A DNA stretch of 64,000 nucleotides from Periconia sp. R9002 (taxonomy: Eukaryota > Ascomycota > Dothideomycetes > Pleosporales > Periconiaceae). The stretch covers positions 39,811 through 103,810 of the forward strand of contig JAMAHW010000115.1 of assembly GCA_023627715.1 (NCBI GenBank), read 5' to 3'. Positions 1,873-53,300 of this stretch are shown here, one piece after another; within the stretch, counting starts at the first letter, position 1; the number at the start of each line of letters is the position of its first letter. The notes under the pieces are model-generated. The model had not been told where the DNA came from, did not search any database, and saw nothing but the letters and a program-made list of their open reading frames with translations. Position numbers and translations under genes: made by a program.

Positions 1873-3897
1873 GTGACGTGTGGTGAACGTGTCCTCAGGA
1901 AGGAACCCTCCACCTCAACCACGGAAGGTGTGACTACCCCGCGACGTGCCCGTGACAATTCACGGATACGAAAAGTACACGAATGTATAGGTATCGACGT
2001 GGAACTCCCGTGTTGAACCGTGTGGATGAGTCGGGAGGGAATGGAAACATCTACACGGTTCCGAGCGCGATACGAAGAATCCTGGATGAATTCGGATATA
2101 TTAGGCAGCTCTGCTAGTAGTCTCATGCGGTAGGTAGCTGCACGTCGATCACGACAAATTCACGGGAAGTGGCCGTTTCAAAACGTGTCGATCAGTAGGC
2201 AAGCTACGAAATCACAGTGTGGCACGATTTTTACGCGGTTCAGGGCGTGTAACTGTAGGTGTTCGTGTTCGCGTTCGCGGGTGGGAAGACACAGATGGTC
2301 ATAGTGGGTCGAGGAAATCGATTGCTGTGCAAGGCGCAACCCCAACCGTTACCCCCAAGACCTGTGTAATACGTCTCGATCACTCAGACCCCCACCGAAA
2401 GCATGGAATACGGCTATATCTGCTACACTGTCAGGGTATGAGCCCTGTAGGAAGGCGAGGAAGGCACGGAGCCAGACATCCTCATATAGGCACACAGCTA
2501 GCTAGCACCCCAATACATACACATCATACCCATCCATGACCCTGATAATGGTAGCAGCGCCCAACGAAAATTCCCACCGCAGCAACGCGGTGGAAGGCCT
2601 GCGTACGCCCTCCAACGAGCGTGCAGCCAGGCAGCAAACACCATCCCCAGGCCGTGTCTTCCTCGCCTTTCTCCAGAGCTCATACCCTGACATACACCCG
2701 GATGCTGGGTGCACAATATGTATGCTAAAACATATAGGGAAGTAGAATGCGATGCTACTACATGCGATGCCCCGGAGAATACCACGCACACGCGAGAGAG
2801 GTGGCCATTCCTGGATGCGGTTGCTTGGAGCTTGCCTGGAATAACAAGTCATCTCGAGTTACCTGGAAGTTTCAGAGGGGAAAGGTATTGCGTCACATCG
2901 GGGAGCTTTGACTGTCCTGCGAAATCCTATCCCATTGTGACTAGTTATATACTAGGATTCTTAATACAAAAGTGTACATTCTGCAGTGGATTTCACTTTT
3001 AGTTCTTCATCAATGGATAATTGTTTGTGAAAACTTGAGATGATTGAGAAAGCAGGGACTATCCAAAGACGTGGATGATACTCGTTTTGGCGTGCCCCTG
3101 GGTCGAAATTGGAATATCTCTATAAGAAGATGACAATCTGCGTATGGTAATCGACAGGGCTTTACTGGAGTGAAAATATGAATTAGGGTTGAGAGCAAAG
3201 TTGAAAACAATAACAACCAAGGAGAGCAACGCCTTTGCATCTGCGAGGTTTAGCGGAAGAACGAACGTTAGCCATCAGCACCTTTTCAAGTATGTGTGGG
3301 CGACTATACACACCAGCGCAGCTCTTTAAAGATAAGGGCGGTGTGCTAGCAAGCATAGAAGCACGCTGAGCGTGAAACAGGTTGCAAGGTACTGCACTTA
3401 CATGCCCATATTTATCTCTGTCATTCACGTGTGTCTGCCAATTTCCTGTTCAGGTCGCAGATTCAAAGGGGTTCGAGTACCCTGTCTATGAAAGTTTCTC
3501 TGAGTTCAGAAGAGTATCAAGATGCGACGTGATGTAGCGTTCTGCGACTTTAATCATCCTTGCGAATTGAACGGATGGTACCCGCGAATTTGGACGTGAA
3601 GATGTAGCACGAAGGCTCTTCTCCGTACACCGAGCTACACAGGAAAATGAGTATGTCACTACAACAATGGGGTGTTGGGTGATTGAAATAGCAAAATCTA
3701 TGTTCATAGCTATGAAAAGATGACGTTTATTACTACTTGCTTTGCTTATGCTAGAATGAAGATATGATCCAAACGGTATTGAAGGAAAGTAAGAAGAATA
3801 AATAAGTCGAAATGACACGGAAAATTCCAAAATGCCTGTCTCTCCGGCCGTTTCACCACTTTATCACAACACAACGCAAAAACTCCACCCTGAAAAC
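1873..3897. other. gene-free region with a degraded inverted-repeat element
   Basis: No convincing gene is visible between the minisatellite and the CFEM gene. The only organised sequence is the inverted repeat at 2430-2691, listed separately. Confidence 0.55.
2430..2691. repeat. inverted-repeat element with about 45-bp ends
   Basis: The stretch 2430-2475 is about 80% identical to the reverse complement of 2647-2691. Both share the core AGGCGAGGAAG and the end GTCAGGGTATGAG. The arms enclose about 170 bases without a coding signal. This is the layout of a small non-autonomous inverted-repeat transposon that has decayed. I could not find a clean target-site duplication, so it may also be a plain inverted duplication. 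Confidence 0.6.
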
Positions 3898-35665: not shown

Positions 35666-37730
35666 TTAATTGTAAACTGAGCTAACAGGCGGTACACCAG
35701 TCAGCCTCTCTCCGTTGCTGGGCCTGAACTTGGCCTCTTTGTACCAGAGATGCGCGTCCTGAGACAGCGTCTCGACTTCGGACCAGTGGAAGGATGGCGA
35801 GGGGAGGCCCTCGTAAATCCCTTTCGCGTAGTCGATGCCGATGTTGTAGACCTGGGCGAGGTATTTTTTCTGTTTGGTGGTGGTATTAGCTAGTGTAAAA
35901 AACGAGATGGCAAAATGTTATACCTGGATCGTCGGGACCTTTACAAACTTGAGCATGTTGACGGTGTTCTTGATGGTGTTTTGGCGCTCTTGCTCCGTCA
36001 TAACGCGGCTCCAGAGTTCCTTGGCTTGATCGTAATCGTTCTTCTTGCCCTCGTGCCAGTAGTGACTCTTCCGGCTCATGATGTTGTCGTTCACCTGATA
36101 CGGTGCTTCGGCGGTATCCGGTCGGAACTTGTACGCAAAGCTGTTGGGCGCATACTGTTTATTGCCTGCATGGTTTGCATCTACGCGCATCTGGCCGTCG
36201 AAGTTGAGCGGCGCAAACGACTTGGACATGAAGGGGCAGTTGACGGGGACCTGGTGAAGATTTACGCCAATGCGGTGGTACTGCGCATCGCGGTAGAAAA
36301 ACATACGGAATTGCAGGAGCGGATCAGGCGAGTCCTCAATACCCGGAACCATGCTTCCTGGGGAAAAGGCGGCTTGCTCAACGTCGCGGTGGAAGTTTTC
36401 GGGGTTCTTATTGAGGACTAGGCGGCCGAACTCTTGCAGAGGGAATTGATTGCGTGGCCAGACTTTAGTGACGTCGAAAGGGTCGAAACCGAGTTTCTCC
36501 GGGTCGGCGTCTTCGGGTTGCATGACTTGGACGTGGGCCTTCCACACAAGCTCTTGACCATTTTCGATGGTCTCCCAGAGGTCACGCTTGGAGTAGTCGG
36601 GATCCTCTCCGCACATTCGGGTAGCTTGTTCCTGGGTAAACTGCTTTTGCCCGTGCTCAGCCAGAAAGTGGTACTTGATGTACACGAATTTGCCCTCCTT
36701 GTTAACCCATTTGAAGGTGTGGCAGCCGTAGCCGTGGTTGTGTTTCCAGCCTACTGGTGTGCCGTGGTCACTGAAGAACATCAGTCCCGCGTGATTACCT
36801 TCAGGAGTGCAGCCTAGTAGGTCGAAGATCGCATCGTAGTCGAAAAGAAAGTTCTTGGGATTGCGCCATTGGGAGCGGATAACGTCTGGGCCTTGGATAG
36901 GATCCCGGCAGAAAAACACAGGCTGTTCAATTAGAATAGCCAGTCATCCATAGTTGGGGTATCTTACAAAGTTCAGGCCAACGATATCGTAGTTGCCCTC
37001 CATAGTGTAAAACTTGATGGCAAAGCCACGCGGATTACGTGCTTCATCTGGATACTCACGCCCGGGAGTGACAGTTGAGAATCGGACAAATATAGGAGTC
37101 TTCTCACCCACACTGGACAAAAAGTTTGCTTTCTACTCCTACTGTGAGAATGATATTCCATCACGTCCGAGAATTTACATACCGTAAGGCCAGTAACATC
37201 ATGAGTGGTCTCGAAATAGCCAAATGCTCCTGATCCACTGGGGTGGACCATACGCTCAAGGTTCTTCGATCGATTGAACGTTTGTTGCTTCTGGGAAAGG
37301 AACACGTCGCTTGCAACCGGAATTCCGCCAATGGTCTTGCTATGTTCCGCATCAGGCCCACGGAATACCTTCATTGTTAGTGAAGTACGGCCCATCGTCC
37401 TCGCGCTTTCCTCCTTGCACAGCACCTGATACCTATATCGTGGAGACGAAGTTAGTTAAATATAAACAGGGTGGCTACAGTACATGATCAGTGTCTTAAC
37501 ACGCCACGCTACGTGGTGTCTCGATACTATACGAATCTGTACCTAGATTTTAACATACCTTCGCAATTATATCTGCAGGACCTTCATTCGCACTCCCCAT
37601 ATGACTCAGACGGGGAGCGCGAAGCTTCACCAGAGACAACGCCTTGGATAGCTTGGGCTGTAGCTTGGAGCGGATGCTGAAGCGGATCATTCTGGTTGGT
37701 ATTTGCGCCGGTGGATGAAGGAGGAGCCAT
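35666..37730 (-). CDS. haem catalase, with an apparent +1 frameshift
   Basis: Catalase breaks down hydrogen peroxide. Exons as I read them: 37730-37631, a 14-nt micro-exon 37572-37559, 37432-37183, 37132-36968, 36922-35924 and 35869-35666. This makes about 576 residues. The ATG at 37730 has a strong CACCATGGC context; a simpler alternative is ATG 37600, fusing the micro-exon into exon 1. The distal His is in [15 protein letters not shown], the distal Asn in DIVGLNFPVFF and the proximal haem Tyr in [12 protein letters not shown]. In exon 3 the reading frame changes at a GGG run (37357-37359): one G too many separates TNNEGIPW from [11 protein letters not shown]. The intron after the micro-exon is an introner-like element (37433-37558). 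Transcribed divergently from the hemerythrin-like gene. Confidence 0.9.
37433..37558 (-). repeat. introner-like element, copy 3 (catalase intron)
   Basis: This 126-nt intron runs from donor GTATGT to acceptor GATATAG, with branch region TTTAACTAACTT. Its 110-nt core (37542-37433) is 82% identical to copy 2 and 78% to copy 1. It is the only copy on the minus strand of the window, but it lies in sense orientation to its host gene, as a spliced intron must. The hairpin stem carries a compensated pair change (CCACG/CGTGG in place of CCACA/TGTGG). Confidence 0.9.
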
Positions 37731-38536
37731 GGTGGGAAGTTTGTTAAGCAGTGTTGAAGGAATATCCATTCAAAATGTTCTACGACCGCGTAGTTTTTAT
37801 TTTCGTGGACGCGTTGGAAATGTGTGGCTTGAAGAGCGAACCCCGCGCTTTATGGTACGCCATTGCAGCGTAACTGTCTCTCGATGAGGGTAATTGATCA
37901 ATGATGATGTCTGACGTACGTTAATTGCGGTTATATGCCTGGATGCGGAGAAGATGGCATCGTTGGCTCGAAGGATGCATGTAGGCGAGCGACAAGAAGA
38001 CGTCCAAGACATTGAGAGGTTGTGTACATCTTTCTTCATTCGTCTCATGTCCCGTGGTATGACCAATAGACCGCTCCTAATTCATGATTATTGCTGGTGC
38101 TGTACCTGACTAGTACCCATATGTAGTTAGTGGGGTCGCTCCCATTTGACAGGCAGGCAATACATCCGCGGACTTGGGATCACTAAGTAATGCGAAAGTA
38201 GGAATATCCATGAGGTCGTGATGGTGATGTCGAATTTACGTTTTCTCAGTCTCGTCCAAATAAAGATGGTCTAGTACGGCCGGCGTGGTTAGCCTGCCAA
38301 TCAGCTGAGGGTAATCATACACCAAAGATTAACGTCGCATACAATCTGGACTACCAACGCCAATGCTCAAGAATGTGGGGTACGTAAAATGTGCGTGGAC
38401 GAAACGTCGATACGGGAAATGGGAACATATAAAGCTGCGTGGAGAAGGATATCATGTAGTCTAAGATACCTTCCAATTCCTCTTCCCGACGCTGCAGAAA
38501 CAAACTGCAGCGACACCATTGACAACTGACATACAA
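37731..38536. promoter_or_regulatory. divergent promoter, catalase / hemerythrin-like gene
   Basis: About 800 bases separate the two start codons, which point away from each other, so the region must carry both promoters. No specific binding site was identified. Confidence 0.5.
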
Positions 38537-39255
38537 ATGTCTTTCACAAAGCTCCAAGTCACACCTCTTCTCCGCTCTGCTCTCCGTCCCCAAATTCCCC
38601 GCACCCCCTTTGTCATTACACGTGTGGCCGCAATGTCCATGGAGGTCAAAACGAGCGTCAGCGACGCCATCAAAGACGACCACCGCGCCCTTGAAGATGC
38701 ATACAATGGTGTTCTCAGTGCTCCCGATGACGACGGTAAGCAGCGGTTCGGGAATCAATTCACGTGGGAGCTCGCAAGGCACTCCATTGCTGAGGAGTTG
38801 ATTGTGTATCCCGCTTTTGAGAAGTATTTGGGGAACAAGGGGAAGGACATGGCGGATGACGATCGAAAGGAACATCACAAGGTATGTTGAACTTCTCGTG
38901 TTGATCTATCAATGGTCCGTAGACTAACGACAACCCACAGCTCAAGGAACACCTCAAGAGATTCCAAAATATGAAAGCCTCAGATCCAGAGTACATCCCC
39001 CAGCTCAAGATCCTGTTCGATGACCTATCAAAGCACATCCACGAAGAGGAAGAACACGATCTCCCTGAGCTGGAGAAGATACTAGACAGGCCCGAGTCAG
39101 CAGACATGGCCAAGACCTTTGAGCGGACCAAGATGTTTGTACCAACGCGGTCTCACCCTGCGGCGGGTGAAAATCCAATTTTTGAGAGCGTGTTGGGGTT
39201 GCTTGCTGCCCCCGTAGACAGGTTGGGCGATATGCTGAGGAAATTCCCGAAATAA
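38537..39255 (+). CDS. hemerythrin HHE-domain protein
   Basis: Two exons (38537-38881 and 38941-39255) with a 59-nt intron (GTATGT...GACTAACGACAACCCACAG) give 219 residues. The four-helix HHE domain has the expected iron ligands: DHRALED (His49), RHSIAEE (His82), KEHHKLKEHL (His113/114, His119) and KHIHEEEEHD (His147/149, Glu, His154). Such domains bind a di-iron centre and sense or carry oxygen, NO or iron. The first 30 residues (MSFTKLQVTPLLRSALRP...) are basic with no acids, which suggests mitochondrial import. The true start is ATG 38537; an upstream in-frame TTG is ignored. It sits opposite catalase. Confidence 0.9.
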
Positions 39256-39642
39256 AGCAATTGCGTGTTATACATGTTGTTTTTGTAGGAATATAGGGAT
39301 GTATTAGTCGCCGATGTTTTTCTTTTCTCTTTTCCCAGCTCCAACGTAGTTTATGAAAATCCAAATTCAAATAATACATGCCACTCCATGTGAAACACGA
39401 CGTCACGAAGAATAGGAATAGCCACGAATCAAAACGATGTAAAATACTATGCCCAGGGTATAAAGCCATGCATGGTTCGCAAAGCAAAGATCCATGATAA
39501 CAGCCAGAGCGATGAGGCTGAGATAAAACAAAGCAAATGAGTACTCCCCTTCCTTCTCGCGTCCATGATACGTTTCTTATATCCACTTCTGCACAGCCCT
39601 GCGTCCCTCACTGATACTTCCAACTCTCGTCCACATACATGC
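39256..39642. other. convergent 3' spacer
   Basis: This spacer separates the 3' ends of the hemerythrin-like and dynein genes. It presumably holds both polyadenylation regions; nothing else is seen. Confidence 0.5.
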
Positions 39643-41409
39643 CTATTTGGCAGTAGAGTTCGGTCCCTTGCTGATCAATCCCGAGAAGAAAGACATGAGT
39701 TTCTCATTGTCCATCTTGTTGGGATCGGTGTTCGATGATGGTGTTGAGGGTGCTTCTGATTCATTGGCTCTCCCAGCCTCACGGTCCTGTCGGCCTATTA
39801 GCTATTTTATACTTACCAAAGCTCCCCACATTGCAACTTACCTGCAATCGCTTCACCATTTCGTCAGCATTTACTTGGATACCACCCATGTTGAACTGCA
39901 CTGGGCCAATGTGCTCTTCAACAACGCCAGAGACGTCTTCTGCCCGTGAGCGGTAGGCAGGTTCCGGTTCTTTGCGTGCAGCCTTTGCTTTGGCTTCTTG
40001 TTCATCTTCACGCCGGAGGGCCTCCAATATCGCAACCTGCTCACTGAGAAATTCTTGTGGATCTTGGCTGGTAACTTCCAGACCATTTGCTTGCTTGGAA
40101 TGCAGGGTCGTAAGCTTGAACTCCGATTCAGGGTTCCGGATCGTCTCTTCGTAGATTGATGTCGCTGTAGCGCCTTCCTCTTCCTCTTCGGGTGAGGATT
40201 GCCCATTTGCATGCTCCTCTGCACCAGCAGTAGCCTGTCCATTGGCGGTAGGTCGCATGTGTCGCGGAGGGTCTATGTCCACCGACCATTTCTCGCTCAC
40301 GCCTTCAACGTCGAAGCCTTCTCTCAAGATGCGTATCTTTGCCCATGAATCCCAGTTTGGTGGCACCAGCACACGATCACGGTCCGTCACGTTGTGCTTG
40401 AGCTGTTTTTGCTTAAGCGAGCTCTTAATCCCTAGAGTAGAGTGTATCAGCGTTTGCAAAGACCCTGGCGCTGTAGGCATGGTGTACACCAGGCTGGAGC
40501 CATGCTTTAGCAGTATAGTGCGAAGATATTGCAGGATGAAATCGAACTCCTCCTCTTTCCAACCCCGCTCTCTTTCTAGAGTTTCGATCTTATCGGCATT
40601 CTGGCAGACCACACATAGGGGTATGCCGAGCGGCTCGTCCCACTCTCCCGGACCAAGTGGGACCTTGACGTTCTCTAGCGCGCTGTTTCCTTCTCCGCCC
40701 AAATTCCGCCCCTTATCTTGCAATGTCGTAATGTTTTCCTCCAACACCTCCTTCGATGCATCGTCGAGCGATAGGATCAGAGAGCGCAAAACACGTATCC
40801 AGTCGCGGAGCTGTCTTATCCACAGCCAAGGATGGTTCCAATCGAGAAGGATCACAACAAGTGTATGTGGCAGTGTGCGGGGGTTCAAATAAGGCTTGAT
40901 CAGGGGCGTGAAAGAAGGGGAGGGGTTGGCGAGGAGGTAGAGCGACAGGCGGGCGAGAGTATCTGGTCAGGTTAGCCCGAAGCCCGTCACATGTCGACTA
41001 GTACTGTGCTTAATACCTTCGTGATCAGTATCCAGCACATCTTGATATGTATAACCCAGGGCGAATTGGTTGGCAATGGGTGGTTTACGGCCGCGATCGG
41101 GGGGTCTGCGATTGCTCGTTGGATCCGTCGATACAGACTCTAAAAATTCCCGCTGTGTTACTGATGTGCCGCCTATAATAATGTTGTGTTAGTCTTGCAT
41201 GTCCGCATACGTGTACTTGTAATATAGAGATTGATGATGTGTCCTGAGCGAATACACATACCCAAAACAAGCAAGCTCTTTTCTGGAAGTCGCTTCCCGC
41301 TCGATATGCTGTCTAGCATAGGCTTCCATATCTCTTCCCTTTCGTCATCCTTGTCTTTGCTGTTTGGCCGTCTAGTTGGCGGGTTGGAGTTGCGGTAGCT
41401 GGTGGCCAT
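39643..41409 (-). CDS. cytoplasmic dynein light intermediate chain
   Basis: Four exons (41409-41262, 41172-41017, 40962-39842, 39786-39643) give 522 residues. The product resembles dynein light intermediate chain, a subunit of the microtubule motor that links cargo adaptors and shapes nuclear and organelle movement in hyphae. Exon 1 ends with EKSLLVLGG, followed across the junction by TSVTQREFLES, the divergent nucleotide-binding loop region of the family. Further matches are the QFALGYTYQDVLD segment and LPHTLVVILLDWNHPW. The C-terminal part is low-complexity, with an amphipathic SFFSGLISK near the end. The first intron is 89 nt, longer than its neighbours. A 503-bp divergent promoter is shared with the IST3-like gene. 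Confidence 0.88.
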
Positions 41410-41912
41410 GTTTGCTTTGCGGGCGGAGATGCTCGGGGGTGTCGCGCGTGAGGGAGGAAGGGGATGCGTGGCGGGAGTGGAGTGACAGCACGTCTATGAT
41501 GACATGAATTGCAGCATAGGAGAGAGTTCGAAAACAGAAACGAGGAGAGCAGAATAGGGGAGACGTAGATCAATCTGCGGGGGCGGTGTGGGGGGAGTGT
41601 TTGCGACTCTCCTCCTGTTCAACGGTTCCTGCGATGTTAGCTGCAACTTTCCGCGCAGGGGTCAACAACGCCAAGAAAAACTTTTTGGCGGCGCGACATG
41701 CTTGCCTACGGCTAACCATCAACACCACACTGGATACCCCAGTACTCCTCCGCCTCCACTTCAATGGCAGTACAGATAAAAACCCTCGACACACCGCTCG
41801 ACTGATGGTATTTAAGCCTTATCGATCGTCGCCGAAATCCTCAGTAAAGCCCTCGCCAGCCACTGACATCACCCGAGGCTGTCTGCGCGCCTGATCGCAG
41901 CGTCGAACCACC
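41410..41912. promoter_or_regulatory. divergent promoter, dynein LIC / IST3
   Basis: Both start codons face outward across 503 bases. C/T-rich stretches near 41740-41760 may be promoter or leader of the rightward gene. No defined motif is claimed. Confidence 0.5.
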
Positions 41913-42899
41913 ATGAACTCCATTCGCGCCATCCAGAACCTCAATAAGCGCGAACTCGAACAGGGAATATCTACGGAAGCTTCATGGCATGCTGATTACC
42001 GCGACACAGCATTCATTAACATAGGCGGCCTGCCATTTGAGCTCTCCGAAGGTGACATCATCACCATATTCTCTCAGTATGGAGAGCCCGTATGGATAAA
42101 ACTGGCGCGCGATAAAGAAACAGGAAAGTCGCGAGGTTTTGCATGGCTAAAGTACGAAGATCAACGGAGCTGCGATCTGGCTGTGGACAACCTCGGCGGA
42201 ACGAAAGTCCTAGACCGAGTTCTGCGGGTAGATCATGCACGGTACAAGCCTAAAGACGATGAAGACATGCGTGACAACACCATGGGAGAGCTAGAGGCAG
42301 GCGCCGATACAGACGATGACGACGGCAGGCGGAAAAGACGGCGCACCGAAAGTGAAAGCGATTCTGACGAAGACAGACCGCTCCTTCAAGAAGAGATCGA
42401 ACTGCAGAAAGCAATAGACACTATCGACGAAGAGGATCCCATGAAGGATTCAATGGTCAAGAGGCTGCAAGAAAAGGCTGACGCAGCTGTCAAGAAATAC
42501 AAGAAGAGCAAACGAAAGGAAAAGGAGCGATCACGGAGACACGAAAGGCGGCATCGACGAGACCGTTCGAAAGGCCGTGATAGAAAGGAAATCAAGGATA
42601 GGGATAGGGATAGGGATAGAGATAGGAGCAGCGAGCCAAGACGTATCAAAGATGGACGTGATGCGGATGACCGAGACCGGCATAGGAGCTCTCGCAGACA
42701 TCGAGATGATTCCGAGGACAGGGAACATGATCGCCGGCGCTCTCGTGATCGCAGACATCGTAGCCGGGAGAGACGTCGGCATAGCTCGGACGAAGATGAA
42801 GACTATAGAAAATCACGGCACAAACGCTCACCCAGCCCTGCGCGGAAAGACGATAGCCGCCGCCGTCGCCGCAGCTACTCCAGCGAAGAAAGAGGCTAG
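41913..42899 (+). CDS. IST3: IST3/Snu17-type U2 snRNP RNA-binding protein
   Basis: This is an intronless 328-residue nuclear protein. The N-terminal segment (MNSIRAIQNLNKRELEQGI...SWHADYRDTAFINIGGLP) and single RRM (residues about 33-110; RNP2 FINIGG, RNP1 KSRGFAWLKY) are those of IST3/RBMX2. That protein is a member of the RES complex with Bud13 and Pml1, which aids spliceosome activation and pre-mRNA retention. The fungal core is followed here by a long Arg/Asp/Ser/Lys-rich tail (residues 150-328) with RD/DR dipeptide repeats. Part of the tail is encoded by a GATAGG hexamer repeat at 42597-42628. The tail is much longer than in yeast Ist3, like metazoan RBMX2. Confidence 0.88.
   Translation: MNSIRAIQNLNKRELEQGISTEASWHADYRDTAFINIGGLPFELSEGDIITIFSQYGEPVWIKLARDKETGKSRGFAWLKYEDQRSCDLAVDNLGGTKVLDRVLRVDHARYKPKDDEDMRDNTMGELEAGADTDDDDGRRKRRRTESESDSDEDRPLLQEEIELQKAIDTIDEEDPMKDSMVKRLQEKADAAVKKYKKSKRKEKERSRRHERRHRRDRSKGRDRKEIKDRDRDRDRDRSSEPRRIKDGRDADDRDRHRSSRRHRDDSEDREHDRRRSRDRRHRSRERRRHSSDEDEDYRKSRHKRSPSPARKDDSRRRRRSYSSEERG
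42597..42628. repeat. (GGGATA)n coding microsatellite
   Basis: About five units of a GATAGG hexamer inside the IST3-like gene code for alternating Asp-Arg dipeptides. Length changes in steps of six would keep frame. Confidence 0.85.
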
Positions 42900-43482
42900 A
42901 AGAGTGTCATTGAAATTCAAAGTGAATCGCTCGCCCTAAACGCCTTCTTCAAATTTCTTCCTGTGTATGATATTCCATGGTCTACTGATTGAATGGCAGT
43001 TAGGGGTTTGTTTGTGATGATCTCCTTATTAGACGATCCGATTCAACTATCTATCTCACCTACTTCTCATAATGCAGGAGAACTCAGAATGTTCGAAAGT
43101 CGAGGTCTACGTAAATTGCAGCCATTTCCTTAGAAAAGCAACGATATAGTCGCCAATGTGAGAACCATGACGTGGGAACTTCCGTACTGTCTGGCACATA
43201 TGTAAACTTCCCCACAAGTGTCCTGGCCGAAATCCCGGTTTCCCCGCCCATTAGTTTGGGAGGATCAATAAAAATCGTACGGTCAAACGAGAACAAGGTC
43301 GATCTAGGAAACAATATAGCCTGAACAAACCGCCTTCTCCATGCAGATCCGCCAATCACAAATAACGCCGCGGTTGATCTGCAACCCAAAAACCTGGCAT
43401 TCATAAACCCACTGTTCTCCGTTGTACCATGTATCCCTCTTAAAAAAACTCATGTATCTCAGGTAGCAATTTGCAAAAAATC
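42900..43482. other. intergenic, nothing firm
   Basis: This is spacer between the IST3-like and GH95 genes. A 106-codon ORF on the minus strand (43084-43404) has no recognisable family and no promoter context; I do not call it. Confidence 0.5.
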
Positions 43483-45960
43483 ATGCAGGCTTTGGTTGCA
43501 GCAGTGGCCCTGTCCACTTTGGCCACAGCACAGCAATTTTCCCCGCCAAATTCAAAGAACCATCCATTGCGCTTATGGTACTCTACACCTGGTACATCTG
43601 CCGTATGGAACGAGCATCTGCCGATTGGCAATGGCCGATTAGGTGGTATGGTCAGAGGTGGAATCCCCTCTGATATGGTATATTTCAACGAAGATTCTTT
43701 CTGGAGTGGAGGACCAATGGACCGAGTAAACCCCAGCGCGACAGAATCGTTAAGTCGTATACGTCCGTGGCTTCTTCAAGGTGCCATTTCTGATGCCTCA
43801 TTCGAGGCAGATCTTGGAATTGCAGGTGTCCCTTCGTCAATGCGCCAATACATGCCGGGCGGCGATTTCCAGATCGTGTTTCAGAACCAGACTGGAAATA
43901 CGAGCAGCTACGAGCGTTGGCTGGATCTATCCGATGGTACCGCGGGCGCTCACTATACTCTGGGTGGGGTTACATACGAACGCGAATATCTCGCAAGCAA
44001 TCCAGCCGACGTTCTCGCTGTACATCTCACTGCTTCAGACGCAGCGCTCAACTTCTATATCAAATTTCAACGTCCTACGTCTGGACAAAATCGTTGGGCG
44101 GAAGCTTCCTATGCAGAGGGCGGCGATACGATGATCACGAAGCTCCAGGAGAACAGCATTGTTGCGTATTTTGTGGCAAAAGTAAGAATATCCGGAGGTA
44201 AGATGAGACAAGTGGGTGATCAGATCCTGGTTACGGGGGCCAGTGAAGCCTGGATCTACGCAGATATGGAGACGACAGTGAGGCATGAGGATCCATTGAA
44301 TACTGCTGTAGAGAAGGTGGCAAATGCAGCAGGAATAGCCTACTCGACACTGCGTCAAGACCATGTCTCCGACTACACGAATTTATTCAATCGGACATCT
44401 CTTTCGCTCGGCAACTCGACAGAAACACAGAAAAGTTTGGATACAGGCGCTCGTCGTCGTGCTCTGGCTGATGGCTCCTTCGACCCTGAACTACTCTCGC
44501 TCTTTTTCCAATTCGGTCGATACCTTCTCATTGCATCTTCTCGTCCCGGGTCTTTTCCTCCTAATCTTCAAGGCATATGGAACAGCGCTCTTGATCCTGC
44601 TTGGGGGTCCAAGTTTACCATCAACATCAACTTGGAGATGAATTACTGGCCTTCCGAAGTCGGCAACTTACATGAACTCACAGAGCCACTGTTTGATCTG
44701 ATGGCGAAGCTTTATGAATCTGGCAAGGTCACGGCGAAGAAGATGTACAACGCCAGAGGCTGGGTTGCACACCACAACACAGACATTTGGGGAGATACAG
44801 CGCCTCAGGATATCTATGCGGCAAGCGCCTACTGGCCAATGGGTCACGTTTGGCTTCTCCAGCATGTCTACGAACATTACCTGTACACTGGGGACAAAGC
44901 GTTTCTTGAAAAACATTGGCAAATGATGCTCGATGCCGCTCAATTCAAGCTTGACACTCTCGATGATTTCAACGGATGGAAAGTCACCAACCCTTCCGTA
45001 TCACCGGAAAATTCCTATAAAAATGGGACTGCGGATGTCGCTCTGACTATCGGCCCTACTATGGACAACTCGCTTCTACGCCAACTTTTCGACAACGTGC
45101 TCAAAGCTTCTGAGATCCTTGGGAAGAACGACAGCAGCACATTACTGCAAGATATCAAGACAGTGAAATCGCAGCTCCCTCCCTTCCAAGTCTCGCCCCG
45201 GACAGGTGCACTCATGGAGTGGATTGAAGACTACGAAGAGAGCGAACCCGGCCATCGCCACTTCTCACCTCTATATGGCCTCTTCCCAGGCTCAGAAATC
45301 ACCCCTGCAGATCCGAAGATATGGAATGCGTCCATTGCTTTAATCAAACGGCGAGTCGAGTAAGTACCCTTACTTTTCCACATCACCAACTACAACACTA
45401 ATATCACATAAAGCAACGGTTCCGGCAACAATGGTTGGTCGCGCTCCTGGCTCGCCGCCCTTTACACACGCCTCCACAACGGCGCCGAAGCCCAATCTTC
45501 CCTCTCTACCCTCCTCTCCAACTATACCTACAACTCGCTCCTCGGCACCGGTCCGCCCGCACCCTTCCAAATCGACGGTAACTTTGGTGGGTGTGCGGCT
45601 ATCGCTGAATCGTTGTTACAGTCACACAATGGTGTTGTCAATGTACTGCCTGCGAGGTTTTCTGGGAGTGAAGAGGGTGGGTTTGAGGGGTTGGTAGCTA
45701 GAGGGGGTTTTGTGGTTGGGGCTAAATGGGAAGGTGGAGAGGTCAAGTGGGTCAGGGTTGAGAGTAGGATAGGAGGGAAACTGAATGTTACGGCCGGCAC
45801 GGGTGGGGGGTTGAGGCTCGTTGAAGGTGGCGGTGGTATCAACGGAACAATTGGTTCATCTGGGGCTGGAGGGGGGAATGGAATTGTTGAGAAGGGTTTG
45901 CAGTATGTGTCGGTTAATACTACAAAAGGAAGTATTTATGAGTTTGTGGCTGTGAGATAG
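43483..45960 (+). CDS. secreted GH95 alpha-L-fucosidase
   Basis: Exons 43483-45359 and 45414-45960 (intron 54 nt; GTAAGT...CACTAATATCACATAAAG) give 807 residues with a signal peptide (MQALVAAVALSTLATAQQ). Glycoside hydrolase family 95 enzymes remove alpha-1,2-linked fucose, and some relatives act on galactose, from plant xyloglucan or other glycans. The N-terminal beta domain begins LRLWYSTPGTSAVWNEHLPIG. The catalytic (alpha/alpha)6 barrel shows the Asn pair in TININLEMNYWPSE, the Glu in SVSPENSY and the Asp in PFQIDGNFGG, all family hallmarks. Many N-glycosylation sequons are present. The last 100 residues are Gly-rich and strongly G-biased in DNA. The start is ATG 43483; an upstream TTG is not used. 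It probably acts on plant material outside the cell. Confidence 0.93.
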
Positions 45961-46192
45961 ATGCCCGGATATATTAAAACTTACAACATCTACACAATCC
46001 ACGTGTCGTGCTGAGGCGTTATCAACACTCTTTGCCAATTGCTTGGTTTCCACATAGGGAAAAGCGCTAGCCAGAAACGGTTACCTGTATCACCATTGCA
46101 CTTCCTTTTTTAAATGCAAAGGCTCCCCTTGACCCGCTTCCTCCTCCTACTTCAACCCATCACACAAACAGCATCAGCCCATAATCGCTACC

Positions 46193-47157
46193 ATGAATCC
46201 AGAAGATCTCGTTCATGAACTGCCGGACGGGCAACTTGTTTGTCGCGAACACCTGCTTATCTATTGCGCAAAGTGCTGTGTTGATTTCACGTTCATGATG
46301 GAAGAAGAGGAAGAGCTTGAAGAGGATGATACATACGAGATTGAACAGCCTAGCATCCGTGTGGGCGGCTTTCGCTTTAGCTCTTCCTCGAGCGATGAGG
46401 ACGAGCTTAGGCAGCCTAGCATCCGTATGGGCGGTTTTCGCGTCAGCGCTCCCGCGAGCGACGAGGACAATTTTGGTGGGCCCAAGATCAAACGAGGAAC
46501 CGGCCGTGTGCTGCCCACTAGGTTCAAACCTCCCACCTCCATCGCCACCCCTATGGAGGTATTCCGTTTCGACAACAGCCGAATGCGATTTTGTCGTTAT
46601 GTCCATCGCAATGACTCCACTCAAGGACTAATCTTTACCGATGGCGCTTGTCTCGATAACGGACAAGCTCATCCCCGTGCTGGATGGGCATTTGTTACCG
46701 GACCATGTGGAGGTGCCGATGGTAGGGTTGTGAGTGGCGGTAGCAAAGGTCGTCTGGAGACCCGAGGTCCATTTGGAGACGAAGGCTTGCAGACCAGCAA
46801 TAGAGCAGAACTCCGTGCTGTCATAGCTGCACTGGGTTTTCGACACTGGCCAGGCGAAGGATTTAAAACAATGGTGCTTGCGACTGATTCATCATACGTC
46901 GTAGATATGGCGCTACAGGATGGGTCAAGAAGTGGTTGAAGAATGGATGGAAAACTTCCACCCAGGCGCCAGTCAAGAATAAAGACCTTTGGGAGATGTT
47001 ACTGGGGGAGGTGGAGAGGCTTGCAGACTGCGGCCTCACAGTTCAGTTCTGGCGCATTGGACGTGAACACAACACCGAGGCGGACGCGTTAGCCAAAGAG
47101 GGCGCGATGGAGAGTGAAGTGGATTCGTACACCCGGTTATTCGGCTTTGTTGGTTGA
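46193..47157 (+). pseudogene. RNase H-like protein gene with a 2-nt frameshift
   Basis: The N-terminus (CREHLLIYCAKCCVDF, then an acidic run) leads to a twofold repeat, QPSIRxGGFRxS...SDED. An RNase H domain follows from about residue 140: FTDGAC (Asp), SNRAELRA (Glu), LATDSSYVV (Asp) and later REHNTEADALAKEGA (Asp). All four acids of the RNase H active site are present. The frame changes at about 46903-46908: reading through gives a stop at 46939, while dropping one AT from GATATGG joins VVD to GATGWVKKW and on to the end at 47157. Either the allele is broken, the sequence has an error, or a tiny unseen splice fixes it. The 18-nt GT..AG stretch there is too short for a normal intron. Confidence 0.72.
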
Positions 47158-47930
47158 TATGTAGGGTATTCTGGATTCTAGGGTTTTTCCAGGGATTTGG
47201 AACTTTGTACGCTGTACTCTATGTTGCAGGGCTTGATTATTCAGTAATCGCACCCTGATTAAAGAAACAAACAACTGCACATGTAGGCAAGGGGCGTTTG
47301 AGTCAAATACAGCTATCAACCACTCTTGATATGGGCGTTTCAGTTAGATACAACTATTGAACACTCTTAATATGGAATAACAATACGGAAAGAAATGGAA
47401 TTTGCTTTTGATGTTGTTGGTTGTGCGTTTGCTTTTAGGGGAGCATATATAGATGCCCTCCTCGCCTACCTCGTCATGAGGTCCGAAGACGCATCCAAAT
47501 ATGATGCGGGAATAGCGGAGAGGGGCGCTCGAGATTTCTCTGGAAAAGAACTAAAGATAGATTCTCGATTAATCGTTTACGATGGCATACAGATTGTTGA
47601 TGAGCCTACCTCCTACCATCGCGATTGGTCCGTTTGTGTTTGATTTCTCTGTGAACTAGGTGAAAGACGATCCTGAAAGCAGGTGGTTGGTAGAATGTAT
47701 ACATCGCGTGATACAGAATTGCCAAATCGGGGAATAATGACAGTCATAGTTACTAAGAGCTATAAGGCTCCTTGCACGGACCAAAAGATAGTACCAAGGT
47801 ATTTAAGGAATTGGAGCTTTGATTACTCCCTGCCTGATACAAAATTCAGCATATCAACCAGTGAACGAAATTAAGTGAGCAAAGGCTTTGAAGACCAACT
47901 TGCGTCATTGGGATACAACAGATCTTCAAA
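47158..47930. other. intergenic with a 41-bp tandem duplication
   Basis: No gene is supported. An 82-codon ORF at 47395-47643 has no family resemblance. The duplication at about 47291-47372 is listed separately. Confidence 0.5.
47291..47372. repeat. two-copy 41-bp tandem repeat
   Basis: Two adjacent copies of a unit that begins GGCGTTT and ends CACTCTT(G/A)ATATG differ at about seven of 41 positions. More than half of the changes are C/T or G/A transitions, which would fit mild repeat-induced point mutation. Confidence 0.75.
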
Positions 47931-48937
47931 ATGGCACATCCTCCTACGACTACAACCCCGACCACTCTATCAAATGACCAGCTCGCCGGCAAAAACAACC
48001 CCATCCGCCCCACTCTTTCGGTCTTAAAAATCACCCTCTCGCGAGTCAAAACCAAAGTAAACCTCTTATCACCCAAATCTCCCAAATCTCCGTCCCGAGC
48101 CTTCGAGCCAACCGGAACCTTCCCATTCTTCCGTCTCCCCCGCGAGGTTCGTGAGAAGATCTACAATTCCCTGTTCAAGCAAACTATCCCTCGACGTCTC
48201 ATCGCGTGCGATATATCTCCACATCCACATCCTCCGACTTCCGCCACGATTCCTCTCCCCCGCTTCCCCAATCTCTGCTACACTAGCCGTATGTGAACTC
48301 CAGGTATAGAGTCATTTGTTATCAAGACACCACATAGTGTGGCGTATTAAGACACTGATAGTGTACTATAACCAGCCTAGTTACATTTAACTAACTTTGT
48401 ACACGTGATATAGGGCGTATGTACATCGAGTCAGTACCGAATCTCCTGCGAAACAGCGAAGTCATCCTCCTGGATGTTGTATCTATGCAAGACGTACTCA
48501 AGTACCTCAACCAGGGGCACAATAGTACTCTAGCCCAGGGCATTACATCCCTTACGTTCTCATCTCGAATCCCCTGGACGCCGCACACGACACACACGAC
48601 GCGCGCTCTACTCGAGAAGTGTATAAATGTGCGCCATGTCAAGATTTCAGTTTCGGCTACCCGGTGCGTAGAGTGGGTTGGTAGCAACGAGGTGAAGGTA
48701 AAGAGTAAGAATCAGGTTATAGAGGGAGCCGACTACTGCTGTTTGATGGATTGTGACAAGCTGAAGAAGGTTTCACTGGTTTGTGTTGGCGGAGGGGCTG
48801 AGGCTAGAGTGCTTGGTGTTCATGTGGACGCCGTGTTTGAGCCGGTTGTGAGATGGGTGAGGGAGAATATTTGTAAAGGACGGGGTATGGTCTTGGTTGT
48901 GGAGCATGTGGAAGGCGTTGGGATGGGGCGTTGGTAG
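47931..48937 (+). CDS. 2EXR (F-box-like) domain protein
   Basis: Two exons (47931-48288 and 48414-48937) join into 293 residues. The first half carries FPFFRLPREVREKIYNSLF, the 2EXR/F-box-like opening common in ascomycete proteins of unknown function. The splice joins NLCYTSR to RMYIESVPNLLRNSEVILLD, the expected helix pair after that opening. Unspliced, the ORF stops within eight bases of the donor, so the intron is required. The intron (48289-48413) is an introner-like element. The C-terminus is Val-rich (VVRWVRENICKGRGMVLVVE). Role unknown; the family may serve in ubiquitin-ligase-like or other protein interactions. Confidence 0.85.
48289..48413 (+). repeat. introner-like element, copy 1 (2EXR gene intron)
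   Basis: This 125-nt intron runs from GTATGT to GATATAG with TTTAACTAACTT as branch region. Its 110-nt core (48304-48413) matches copy 2 at 98 of 110 positions. It interrupts a codon after its first base. The host-exon side repeats CGTATGT at both ends, like a target duplication. Confidence 0.92.
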
Positions 48938-49022
48938 ATGAAAGAGGAAAGATAGCTGGTGTCGCTTTGTGGTGTGGCTTCGGTTGCAGGTTGAAGGCCG
49001 CTGCTATCTTTCAGGGTCGATT

Positions 49023-49326
49023 TCACGATTTGTTCGTGTCCATTTGGATCGAATCTGTTGTCAGGCCCTTGTTATATTCCTGGCCTCTGCCAAATAAGAC
49101 CTAGATGTCTTAGACTGTTACGTACCCAAAGATCTTGGCCTTTTGTAGTTACAGTTTGATAAGAGTTTGTAAGAATCAAATAACTGTTCAACCCGATCAA
49201 TGTAGTTAACACTGATCCTTCCTTTCTATTCCTATTTCTAGCTCGTTGTATCAGTGATACGAAACCCAGGTATGCGACTGTGATTCCACCGAAGGTGCTA
49301 AACAGAGGCCTGAGTGCAGCCGACAT
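49023..49326 (-). CDS. possible tiny membrane protein
   Basis: An ATG at 49326 opens MSAALRPLFSTFGGITVAYLGFVSLIQR. This reads as one hydrophobic helix followed by basic residues, then a second amphipathic stretch. The open frame can end unspliced at 49072. A 46-nt GTACGT...GGCCAG intron (49128-49083) instead leads to a stop at 49023, giving about 83 residues. I do not recognise the family, and there is no further evidence that it is expressed. Confidence 0.35.
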
Positions 49327-50379
49327 TGAGGGCGTGTCTGAGGAAACTGCAGGTTGCCGAGAACCGATATGAAAAATTGTTTCGGTCGTTGTCTCGAGTA
49401 TACAGAATATTAGAGCAAAACATAGGGGTATTTGGGGTAGCGTGTAGATGTGCGTGGTAAGTCACGCTTTGTTTCAAACGCCGCAGCGCTAAACTGCCCT
49501 ATCATCTTTGGAATTGAAAGACTGGCATGCAATCTTTGCCGGTATGGACGGGTTCGTGCTTACACATTCAAGCGCCGAACCGTTTCCGCCGAACCCTTCA
49601 CAGCTGCATAATGCGATACGGCTATGTCAAATAAGCCCCAACAACGCGTCGCGAGGTGCAGAATGAATCGGAACAAAATACCTGGAATTTGCTGGCGATT
49701 ATGTATGTTGTAGCAAGACTTCATCTTATCGTGGGATCATTCGCTGAATTGAAGAACATTCGTGTATGTGTAAATGTTGAATGTCGAACTTCCTTCTGCA
49801 TCAATGTACAGAGTGAGATTGGTTGGTTTATGGATTACAGTAGAGTCTGTCGCGTAGGTTAGCGCATTCGCATAAGAAGATATTGAACGATAAACTTTGC
49901 CGTAAAAGGGAAATGCCAAGATGATATCTTTCTCCGTGATTTATTTTAGCACATTGCTTTGGTCTCTCAGTCCTACGAGTGTTCCCTGAATCTGACCAAA
50001 CCAGGAAAATAGAATATATTTCATGGCCAATTGATAATTCATTTTAGGATGGGTGATTGACTGCGCTCCTATTACAAAGACAAATTCATGGCTTCAACGA
50101 CATTCACCGCCGCAAAATGGTCGACGCTCTCTGGGGCTTCATCAATGGGTGGCGGTGCCTAGATGGGAGTAAGATCTAACCAGAGATCGTAAGGTGAATA
50201 CTCGAGAAGGTTAGCTTCGTATTCTTCCTTCTACCTCGTACATCCTGGGCGGTTGATCACTGACTCACCAACTACCTATAACCTCCTGTTTTTCGCGTTT
50301 AGGGTTTGTGTAGGTATTTCCCGCGAACATATTCTGTACGATTGAAAATACCATTGCTTGTCACCCAGTCACACCTGAA
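49327..50379. other. intergenic, nothing recognised
   Basis: This is the 5' flank of the large gene that follows. Short ORFs here show no motif. Confidence 0.5.
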
Positions 50380-53300
50380 ATGCAGCAGAGACTAAACTCA
50401 AAGAAGATAAGATCTTCTTCAGCACAGGAACTCCATATCTACCTGAAGACTGTGTTAGAATCGTCACCAGAAGAGGAAATAACGAACGAGCTTCTTCGCC
50501 TTCTTGAATGCGATGTCTTCTCGCCACACCCCGTTTTCCACATATGGCTGAAATTATCTTCTCCCGCAACTATGCGGAAATGTCTGCAGCAGCAAATCTC
50601 AATTTACGTACGGAAATCAGCGATTATACTCCTTGGAAAAAGACTTCGCTCCCCACACTGGCGACTGTTCTGGGATGGCTTGGATGGTGTATCAGGTCTT
50701 ACTGCTTTGTTTAGCGACTTTTCCGAGAATGAGATAAAGATTGCTTGCCGCGCAATTGCCTACAATTGGAAGGGTGGTGATATGGAGGAGAAGATGAAGT
50801 GCTTCACCGAGCTTCTGCAAACGCTTCAGCCGTTGTCGTTCAATCTGAATCAGGAGACTTTGGATAAACGGCCTTTGAAAAAGTACTATCAACTTCTGAC
50901 GCCGGTGTGCACAAACGTTGAACACAAGGAGGCTATCGAGTCGATGGATCCAAAACAGCAGAAAAGGGTTTTCTTCAGATACCAAAGAACCGATCTGGAG
51001 AGAAAATTCCTTCAGTACATGATGGAAGGGCATGACAAAGGCAACGAATGGTTGCTTTCACTTCTCAGAGAATATCTCTCATTTACCTCATCGGAATGGG
51101 GGCGGCTAGAAACGATGCCGTTTGCCATAAGGATTTTCGATGCAGCCGCAAAAAGAAACAAACTTGTCATCAGCTACGACACGTTCATGAACACACTCGC
51201 ACGTCCCCTCCTAAGACGCGCTTTAAGACAGAAAGCAAGTTGGAACATAATCCAGGACATCGCCTGTAAAAGCGTAGCTTGGTGCGAACACAATGGCTGC
51301 CTCGACAAGCTTGATTGTAAACGCGACGGCTTTATTGATCTGGTAGCACAATGCTGGTCTCGTGAGCCGGATCTGTTTGCATACCCTTTGCGCAGTTTGA
51401 TTGCGGGTAGCGTCAAGACTTTGGGCCAGTTAGCTTCCACATATGGGAAGGATTATCACTTGATGAAATTCGGATGCTTAGCCCTGGGCTACAGTTTCGA
51501 TAACCCAGAGCATATGCGACAAGTTTTTGCCCATCTACCTACCTCCACGATAACCGTACTCGATCCGCAAGATTCTTACTCGCTATTCTGTTACTTGCGT
51601 GCTGCAAATTACAGCGAGCAGACGGATGGTTCCGTGCTCTGGTCTAGATGGTCGTTCACAGAATTTCCATTCACCGAGTTCAATTCTGGACCTGATCTGT
51701 TACAAACCATACTTCTTCAGCGGAGTGGTCGTCAAAACGATGCAGAACAGCTGGCAGCAATCAACATTCAAGAGAGAAAAAGGAGCGTGATGTCAAGCGC
51801 AGACGCGACTTCACGCGGTGAACATGTTGGAGCCGTACTGGAATATGCAAAAGCCAGTGGATCCATGCAATTATACAAACAGGAACAGATTTGGGCACGC
51901 CGTTTCGTGCGGGACCCACTTGTTGCGATGCGACTATGGGGTTTGGCATCTCACAGAGAAGTCGCTTTACTGTCCGGGATACCAGAAAGGCCTCTGCTCG
52001 CCCCCAACTTCTCTGTGCAGGACATCACCCAAAGGATTTTGCAGGCTAATGAGATGCTCAATATTTTGTTTGATACTCTGGATGCGGCGAAAGGGGAACC
52101 CTCTTTTTATACCCGTCACTTCAAAGGTTCTTTTCACACCCTCTACCATTCCATCTAGCTCTAACATTTGATGTCAGGAATCTACGACTTGCCTTTAGCG
52201 GTTATAAGAATGCGTATACATAGAGCTAATCATCTTCGAGATACTTGTGGATTCTCGAATGACCAGATATACGAGGCAGTGTGGAAGGACACCCTTCACC
52301 TGGTCTACTGTTTGGAGGCAAGGCTCTCAGCCCCCTTTTTCTCCCCGCCAGCCACCGCCAAGATTACCACCTTGACGGATGAGCAAGATCCGTCTGTGCT
52401 ACGGTTTCTGGATAACTGGTTCAAAAAACGGGACGATTTGTGGGTGGATCTGCGACCTAAAGTTATTAAACAGGATGTCGGGTTGCCTAGACCCTTTCCT
52501 CAAGGTCTTCCTATACAGGATCTCATATATCCATTTCGTTTTCAGGTTCGGTGCCTAGAAACTCACATGCCATATTTGGCTTCTCGTGTCAACGACATCG
52601 TATTTGGAGACCCTCAGCTTTTCTTAGAACCGGTTTCATCAGTTAATCTAGAGGATAGGAACAACCAAATTCTAGTCGACGACTATTTTACAGCACTGGG
52701 CTTATACGTTCCCAGTGTTATCACAGATGATGAACAAAAACAACGCACCGACAAAGCTTGGAAACATGCCATCGGACCCTTGTCTCAACCCCGCATGACC
52801 GAGGAAGAAGCTATCAGATATTGGAAAGGTGAGCGTCGCACATATTGGAGTGGGTCCAGATACCCGACGTACTGGCCGACTTGGAGTGACAAACCCATCG
52901 TTGCGAAGTGGCCAGTAGTCCCCGAGGTCGATGACCCCTTCGAGATGGAGGAATGGAGTCCGCTCCCGCCGATCCGTCGACAGTATGTTGTATTCCAGGT
53001 ACAGAGTCGTTTATTATTAAGATGCCACATAGTGTGGCGTATTAAGACACTGATAATGTACTGTTACCACCCTAGTTACATTTAACTAACTTTGTACCCG
53101 CGATATAGGTATGCGCCTGCAAAACAGTTTTCACCAGTGACTTATATCGATCTCTGCAAAAAGCCGATAGACTTCAACAGAGAGAAGCTTCCAGGAACGG
53201 ATAGATGCGTTTGGAAGCCTGTCGAGGTGCCCGGTGAAACTCCCGAGGAAAGAAGTCTGTATGCACCACTTCGTCTAGCCCGCAAAGAGCCCGCGGTGAG

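Follow-up and report, generated by a model that had tools for sequence, protein, structure and literature searches.

A Periconia introner family with target-site duplications and inverted repeats, a probable short DNA transposon

Huff's 2016 work reportedly described algal introners (Micromonas, Aureococcus) derived from DNA transposons, and the original study of Dothideomycete introner-like elements is said to date from 2012; ascomycete cases may be included in a survey that Gozashti and colleagues reportedly published in 2025. Miniature inverted-repeat transposable elements (MITEs) with 3-bp target duplications are known from PIF/Harbinger and other groups. Here we describe an introner family of the ascomycete Periconia sp. 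R9002 (Dothideomycetes, Pleosporales), noticed in a 64,000-nt stretch of its genome (assembly GCA_023627715.1, contig JAMAHW010000115.1, positions 39,811 to 103,810 of the forward strand; hereafter the window), where introns of three unrelated genes are copies of one element. We argue, with a probability of roughly 0.86, that this element is a MITE-like, non-autonomous DNA transposon, about 123 bp long, which can serve as an intron as it stands.

Among the DNA-transposon introners of algae and protists, some families carry one splice site and take the other from the target, with message length unchanged, and in Symbiodinium a 4-bp duplication makes the 5' splice site while the element supplies the 3' splice site (PMC9860276). 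For ascomycete introners, the parts of this 2022 survey available to us (Gozashti and colleagues) describe a strong gene bias and neither target-site duplications (TSDs) nor terminal inverted repeats (TIRs). Inverted repeats were seen in fungal elements by Torriani and colleagues, as related in the accessible text of PMC8469720. For the stwintrons of Xylariales, DNA transposition was excluded for want of duplications, according to the sections at hand of the work of Fekete and colleagues (PMC8469720, PMC12403724). Collemare and colleagues (PMC4457414) describe introner-like elements from Fulvia, Dothistroma and other Dothideomycetes, and PMC11889510, judging from its available part, concerns a different kind of intron. 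Across the listings of a literature search on fungal introners with duplications, and in the minority of those papers that was consulted, no target duplication came up for an ascomycete introner.

The three window introns lie in a catalase gene (copy 1), a gene for a 2EXR-type protein (copy 2) and the gene for a 1,624-residue protein (copy 3). The original prediction had read them as one introner-like family, and they are genuine copies of one element: their coordinates (Table 1), GT-AG ends, branch region ACTAAC and acceptor ATATAG were all borne out, as was their placement in three codon phases (0, 1 and 2 in the order given, with catalase frames set against catalase homologues). The likeness, first described as an ungapped core of 110 nt, holds and spans the full 125–126 nt, with one 1-nt gap near the 5' end of copy 2. 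Identity counts given earlier for the last 110 nt also stand, with the pairs relabeled: 98/110 belongs to copies 2 and 3, 90/110 to copies 1 and 3, and 86/110 to copies 1 and 2, corresponding to full-length identities of 88%, 81% and 78%, respectively. BLAST between copies inside the window gave E values of 1e-23 to 6e-41, and the best matches of five shuffled cores over 20 kb of the window reached 45–52/110; the likeness is far above chance. Similar introns in unrelated genes, alike up to both splice sites, are the traits by which introners are recognized, and both are found here.

A genome-wide search with the shared core had been proposed as a check on the family, and in the assembly (42.9 Mb, 267 contigs) it came out in favor of an intron-multiplying family. 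Searching with the 126-nt sequence gave at least 41 matches, with 40 of 221 candidates scored. A 28-nt pattern for the 3' end (up to 3 mismatches) matched 111 times and a 26-nt pattern for the 5' end 149 times, with no match for either reversed pattern, and a pattern for a sister subfamily (GACATTCATCACTCATTG..., branch region CTGAC) matched 72 times, with none for its control. Merging the listed places with the copies that were read gives at least 207 distinct places, the true number being higher because 11 right-end and 49 left-end matches fall outside the merge, apart from a few copies that may have been split in error. We read 92 profile matches, under half of the known places, of which 84 score above 60 bits and 82 have both ends placed. 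The 78 that satisfy both form the working set: 49 are GT...AG at intron positions and 29 are not. Right-end matches divide 66 to 45 by contig strand (p = 0.057), in which we see no meaning, and no exact 25-mer match to the element was found in viral contigs.

With 111 right-end matches, at least 207 places and 49/78 copies that are GT-AG introns in apparent sense coding context, the introner-like family is supported. Few copies, or copies mostly intergenic in random orientation, would have spoken for a conventional small repeat; this was not the picture found, yet 29/78 copies are not GT-AG and as a group look non-coding. These 29 do not refute an introner, because the mobile unit would be a DNA element with ends unlike those of the intron. 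Two intronic copies (C23:271863 and C130:26651) are 140–141 nt long, with the 5' inner region partly duplicated by eye, and two GT-AG-intron copies (C1:982913 and C1:983423, minus strand) lie about 400 bp apart, apparently in one MFS/UNC-93-like gene.

The mobile unit differs from the intron: it runs GTTGAAC...CGATATAGG, about 123 bp, within a 3-bp TSD, and its ends lie four bases from those of the intron on one side and one base on the other. The base after ATATAG is G in 67/78 copies, and where the left host base is not G (25 copies) the right G is still present in 21, so this final G is the element's own. A 4-bp duplication (GTAT) was rejected, as a left C, T or A pairs with a right G in these 21/25. 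The triplet before GTTGAAC equals the triplet after ATATAGG at all three positions in 44/78 copies, mostly as TAT, and the summed triplet match is 171 at the chosen register, the best of 23 other registers reaching 97. Among the 29/78 copies whose left triplet is not TAT, eight match 3/3 against 1.6 expected, with none of 20,000 shuffles as good. Including weak copies, the count was 9/33 against 1.5 expected, the added match being the decayed window copy at 608. Duplicated triplets other than TAT include ACA, ACT, TAC, TGC and TGT.

Taken separately, the GT-AG class has a full duplication in 30/49 copies against 22.6 expected (p = 0.0003), and the non-GT-AG class in 14/29 against 5.9 expected (0/20,000 shuffles). 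Copies lacking GTAT begin with host bases (e.g., ACA, ACT or TGC) that are repeated at the right, so GTAT lies outside the mobile unit; because 37/49 intronic copies carry GTAT, intronic copies alone could blur the true ends. A target duplication of fixed length (3 bp), by which a non-autonomous TIR DNA transposon is recognized, is thus seen here. Two related intronic copies at different places, C16:199703 and C25:403426, share GTAA at the left and GCAT at the right; these shared flanks could mark a subfamily whose ends have shifted, or be coincidental.

A 10-bp inverted repeat (GGTACAGAGT / ACTTTGTACC; GGTACARAGT) starts 11 nt inside each unit end. With the two arms folded into a stem, pairing holds in 95.4% of 280 cells across 28 copies, against 30–50% when one arm is slid by 1–3 columns. 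There is no compensatory change in the stem among the 28 sequences, and it is unpaired in the RNAalifold consensus fold, which has almost no covariation (covariation term −0.09). A conserved RNA stem was rejected as the cause of the repeat on these two grounds, and the repeat read as DNA fits better than a stem kept as RNA.

The same two results bear on an RNA-borne introner-like element, in which the excised intron would reverse-splice into transcripts or R-loop DNA and be copied into exons without target duplications. This is the published view for fungi in the available parts of PMC9860276 and PMC8469720, and it would suit the sense orientation of genic copies, the exactness of the sole junction weighed here against homologues, and the 11/49 GT-AG copies in which a GTNN donor goes with a missing 3-bp duplication, each of the 11 followed by G. 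It would, however, carry the intron's GTAT into every site, whereas GTAT-less copies exist, part of them with the left triplet repeated at the right; it sits poorly with the 29/78 copies not bounded by GT-AG, which taken together look non-coding, and with a near-terminal stem absent from the consensus RNA fold and devoid of compensatory change. Reverse splicing was set aside as the main route, since non-intronic copies start in duplicated host bases and not in GTAT, and we regard an exclusively RNA-borne element as decidedly improbable.

For the MITE-like transposon, we propose the following route to an intron. Insertion at a sense site xxxG-TAT-yyy would yield xxxG-TAT-[GTTGAAC...ACTAAC...ATATAGG]-TAT-yyy, where the host G, the duplicated TAT and the element's GTT would form the donor GTATGTT, and the element would bring the branch point ACTAAC, the acceptor ATATAG and a last G replacing the host G that is now intronic. 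The predicted intron is G-TAT-GTT...ATATAG, and the spliced message, xxx-G-TAT-yyy, would equal that of the empty site because the element's final G stands in for the G lent by the gene. Both the donor geometry and the restored message follow from the sequence. At a C-TAT, A-TAT or T-TAT site the GT donor would be absent; copies at such sites exist and as a group lie outside coding frames. A trans-acting transposase would move the element as DNA and the spliceosome would remove it from RNA, and exonic insertions unable to splice would be lost, which could explain why genic copies lie in sense with a GT donor. We infer splicing of the GT-AG copies from their open frames and Pfam matches.

Branch-point form and class are associated, with GT-AG boundaries in 47/69 copies with CTAAC, 1/6 with CTGAC and 1/3 with other forms (Fisher p = 0.011, CTAAC versus the rest), a weak comparison given that the 3' end partly guided the choice of copies. 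As judged by eye, a slightly longer inverted repeat has been kept in the CTGAC form. Our guess is that the splicing-competent CTAAC form arose from an older CTGAC MITE through a better branch point. Previous waves of the family may also have given rise to introns. Older relatives at C3:633118, C41:51863, C17:168466 and C4:108161 have donor-like starts (e.g., GTAAGTTTTT) and acceptor-like ends (e.g., AATTTAG), some of them with the inverted repeat GGGTACAAAGTC.

Coding status was judged from open frames across the joined flanks. For 38 GT-AG copies with long flanks, the median length of the joined frame is 247.5 aa in sense against 78.5 aa in antisense, compared with 57.5 aa and 68 aa for 22 non-GT-AG copies. 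In a shorter test on the 77 copies with enough flank, frames of at least 80 codons were open in 30/48 GT-AG copies in sense and 14/48 in antisense, and in 5/29 and 6/29 non-GT-AG copies, respectively, with random points at 28%. Pfam matches were found for 15/20 sense frames of GT-AG copies (picked from 48, mostly long; two matches below the curated cut-off), and for 0/4 antisense and 1/6 non-GT-AG frames, which served as few and shorter controls. Judged in this way, the GT-AG copies as a group appear to sit in coding sequence in sense orientation, and the 29 others look mostly non-coding, as copies outside genes. The two classes are intermixed on a quick tree of 74 copies, with 19 label changes against 21.0 when shuffled (56/300 shuffles at 19 or fewer).

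Host families include DHH, GMC oxidoreductase, polyketide synthase, RNA polymerase I subunit, MFS, GH10, PHD, rhodopsin-like and AAA. This diversity bears on the notion that old introns of one gene family were spread by gene or segment duplication, for which nothing speaks beyond the likeness itself: the hosts just listed are unrelated and, in printed alignments, likeness ends at the element edge. We give this explanation virtually no weight.

Two host genes point to entry of the element into formerly continuous coding sequence at new positions. One copy interrupts a ketosynthase gene around residue 84 of the 180-aa query, and ten paralogues in the same genome, 43–68% identical and stop-free, are unbroken over the element site; there are additional, weaker paralogues. 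Once the element is removed, a GH92 host protein is gap-free at the junction against all 12 of the homologues chosen from 120 listed, including the best named one, from Periconia macrospinosa (89%). At the catalase junction of copy 1, the joined 12-residue stretch is identical in 2/8 homologues and varies in the other six. The catalase exon has homologues in Pyrenophora (86%) and in Endocarpon and Colletotrichum (83%), and a piece of the 1,624-residue protein matches Periconia macrospinosa at 44% over 60% of the piece. That the best named homologues are Periconia and Pyrenophora fits the link to Dothideomycetes made in the original prediction.

An ordinary MITE landing in pre-existing introns would account for the MITE-like character of the element and for copies outside clear coding sequence. 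We nevertheless hold it to be very improbable: likeness extends to both splice sites in copies 1 to 3, the intron equals the element plus four host bases in the 49 GT-AG copies, and the ketosynthase paralogues are intron-free at the site concerned.

Several observations weigh against the transposon reading. The duplication matches at 0 or 1 of 3 positions in 11/49 GT-AG copies (six at 0/3), window copy 2 included, and several of these duplication-less copies are well preserved in long open frames. Since identity of the copies to their majority averages 91%, decay alone accounts poorly for the missing duplications, and reverse splicing would leave exactly this pattern. TAT is so favored that shuffling within the intronic class leaves just a modest excess. 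At least two of the 29 non-GT-AG copies look genic, in a carboxylesterase (C50:137438) and in a GDSL-like frame (C11:565464, by eye); the former probably has another donor. The two element ends resemble each other just weakly over their outermost 11 nt, making the inverted repeat near-terminal. Finally, Pfam probes of the genome (DDE_Tnp_4, PF07592 and PF18759) found no transposase linked to the family.

The duplication-less copies leave room for two routes in one family, with DNA transposition operating genome-wide and a minority of genic copies arising by seamless re-insertion of the excised intron. Six GT-AG copies match at 0/3, five of them above 125 bits and in long open frames, where decay at 9% per site predicts about 0.25 by a hand estimate. 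On the other hand, flanks that match at 0 or 1 of 3 bases are roughly as common in the other class (8/29 non-GT-AG against 11/49 GT-AG copies), and mean identity is 0.872 among the duplication-less copies, 0.859 between these and the fully matched copies, and 0.848 among the fully matched, so the 11 copies are not a separate lineage. We consider a second route unlikely, if less so than an exclusively RNA-borne element. If true, it would bring the two competing models of how fungi gain introns together in a single family.

As to an autonomous partner, the DDE_Tnp_4 probe for PIF/Harbinger had 0 matches in this genome and matched 1/14 control genomes, on which basis membership of PIF/Harbinger was rejected; the PF07592 and PF18759 probes matched neither this genome nor the control genomes and are uninformative. 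A longer autonomous element was sought by pairing listed ends and was rejected: in most of the six long pairings, which include one at C65:150311 outside the sequence read, the right end belongs to a copy with a left part of its own.

Table 1. Copies of the element and their parts in the window (window positions; transposon units as predicted).
Feature	Position	Strand	Remark
Introner copy 1, intron of catalase gene, phase 0 (GTATGTT...ATATAG)	37433..37558	-	81% identical to copy 3 over 126 nt
Predicted transposon unit of copy 1 (GTTAAAA...ATATAGG)	37432..37554	-	Intron minus host GTAT plus following G
Left target-site duplication TAT, copy 1	37555..37557	-	Part of 5' splice site
Right target-site duplication TAT, copy 1	37429..37431	-	Exonic
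5' inner inverted repeat, copy 1 (GGTACAGATT)	37534..37543	-	
3' inner inverted repeat, copy 1 (ACTTCGTCTC)	37443..37452	-	Decayed; overlaps branch point ACTAAC 37451-37456
Introner copy 2, intron of 2EXR-type gene, phase 1	48289..48413	+	Left TAT, right GCG; without 3-bp duplication
5' inner inverted repeat, copy 2 (GGTATAGAGT)	48303..48312	+	
3' inner inverted repeat, copy 2 (ACTTTGTACA)	48394..48403	+	Branch point ACTAAC 48390-48395
Introner copy 3, intron of 1,624-residue-protein gene, phase 2	52983..53108	+	
Predicted transposon unit of copy 3 (GTTGTATTCC...CGATATAGG)	52987..53109	+	
Left target-site duplication TAT, copy 3	52984..52986	+	
Right target-site duplication TAT, copy 3	53110..53112	+	
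5' inner inverted repeat, copy 3 (GGTACAGAGT)	52998..53007	+	
3' inner inverted repeat, copy 3 (ACTTTGTACC)	53089..53098	+	Branch point ACTAAC 53085-53090
Decayed fourth copy	about 608..715	+	72% identical to copy 3 over 108 nt; usual donor place without GT
Remnant of older relative of the element family	3490..3588	+	Profile E 3.9e-6

Elsewhere in the window, the catalase frame has two apparent frame shifts against homologues, one on each side of introner copy 1 (37200-37728, minus strand), for which a pseudogene and assembly errors cannot be told apart. A 32-bp inverted repeat at 365-429 (28/32 matched, 1-bp spacer; GTCTTACA..GACA.CAGATAACCC) looks like another small MITE, and a tandem repeat at 1579-1867 consists of 7.6 copies of a 37-bp unit (CCGTGGCGTGGAGGTGTTCGTGGCGTGGAAGGCGTGA). 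An Rfam scan of the window gave no match.

Set beside MITEs with 3-bp duplications (PIF/Harbinger and others), the element shares their general traits of size, inverted repeats and a 3-bp duplication; it differs from the PIF/Harbinger type in having TAT over TWA, no DDE_Tnp_4 match, and GT-AG introns in 49/78 readable copies. With the protist introners of Micromonas, Aureococcus and Symbiodinium, as far as the sources at hand describe them, it has in common that they are short and non-autonomous, with inverted repeats, target duplications and one splice site carried. Compared by description, it differs in its ascomycete host, its 3-bp duplication and an inverted repeat 11 nt inside the ends, and in that the donor G is a host base outside the duplication, for which the element's spare final G stands in. 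Like the Dothideomycete introner-like elements in the available part of PMC4457414, it belongs to that fungal class and combines a recent spread of similar introns with unrelated genes and new positions. From ascomycete elements as published, without TSDs or TIRs in the accessible text of PMC9860276, it differs by description in showing a target duplication and a near-terminal inverted repeat, and in 29/78 copies that are not introns.

The sequence-similar [D1,2] stwintrons of Xylariales likewise multiply as intronic elements and carry a 10-nt inverted repeat near their ends, the 3' arm of which lies near or between branch point and acceptor (PMC8469720, PMC12403724, in the parts available). 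Theirs are nested double introns, 184–185 nt in the two clusters shown, with the repeat GUAUAAAAAC and explicitly no target duplication in those parts, whereas here we find a single intron with the repeat GGTACARAGT, a duplication and copies outside coding frames. No internal intron that splits the donor of an outer one, the [D1,2] stwintron trait, was noticed on reading the copies, a systematic scan not having been made.

Together, the sequence data suggest that this is an ascomycete (Pleosporales) introner with DNA-transposon marks, by a mechanism, with one splice site carried, already known from protists. In burst-wise intron gain, ascomycete introners have so far been the exception, read as products of reverse splicing in the available parts of PMC9860276 and PMC8469720. 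In this family intronic and non-intronic copies co-occur, and the non-intronic copies expose the element's true ends; other ascomycete introner families could be re-examined through their non-genic copies. A clean rule, sense orientation with G before TAT, would predict which insertions turn into introns.

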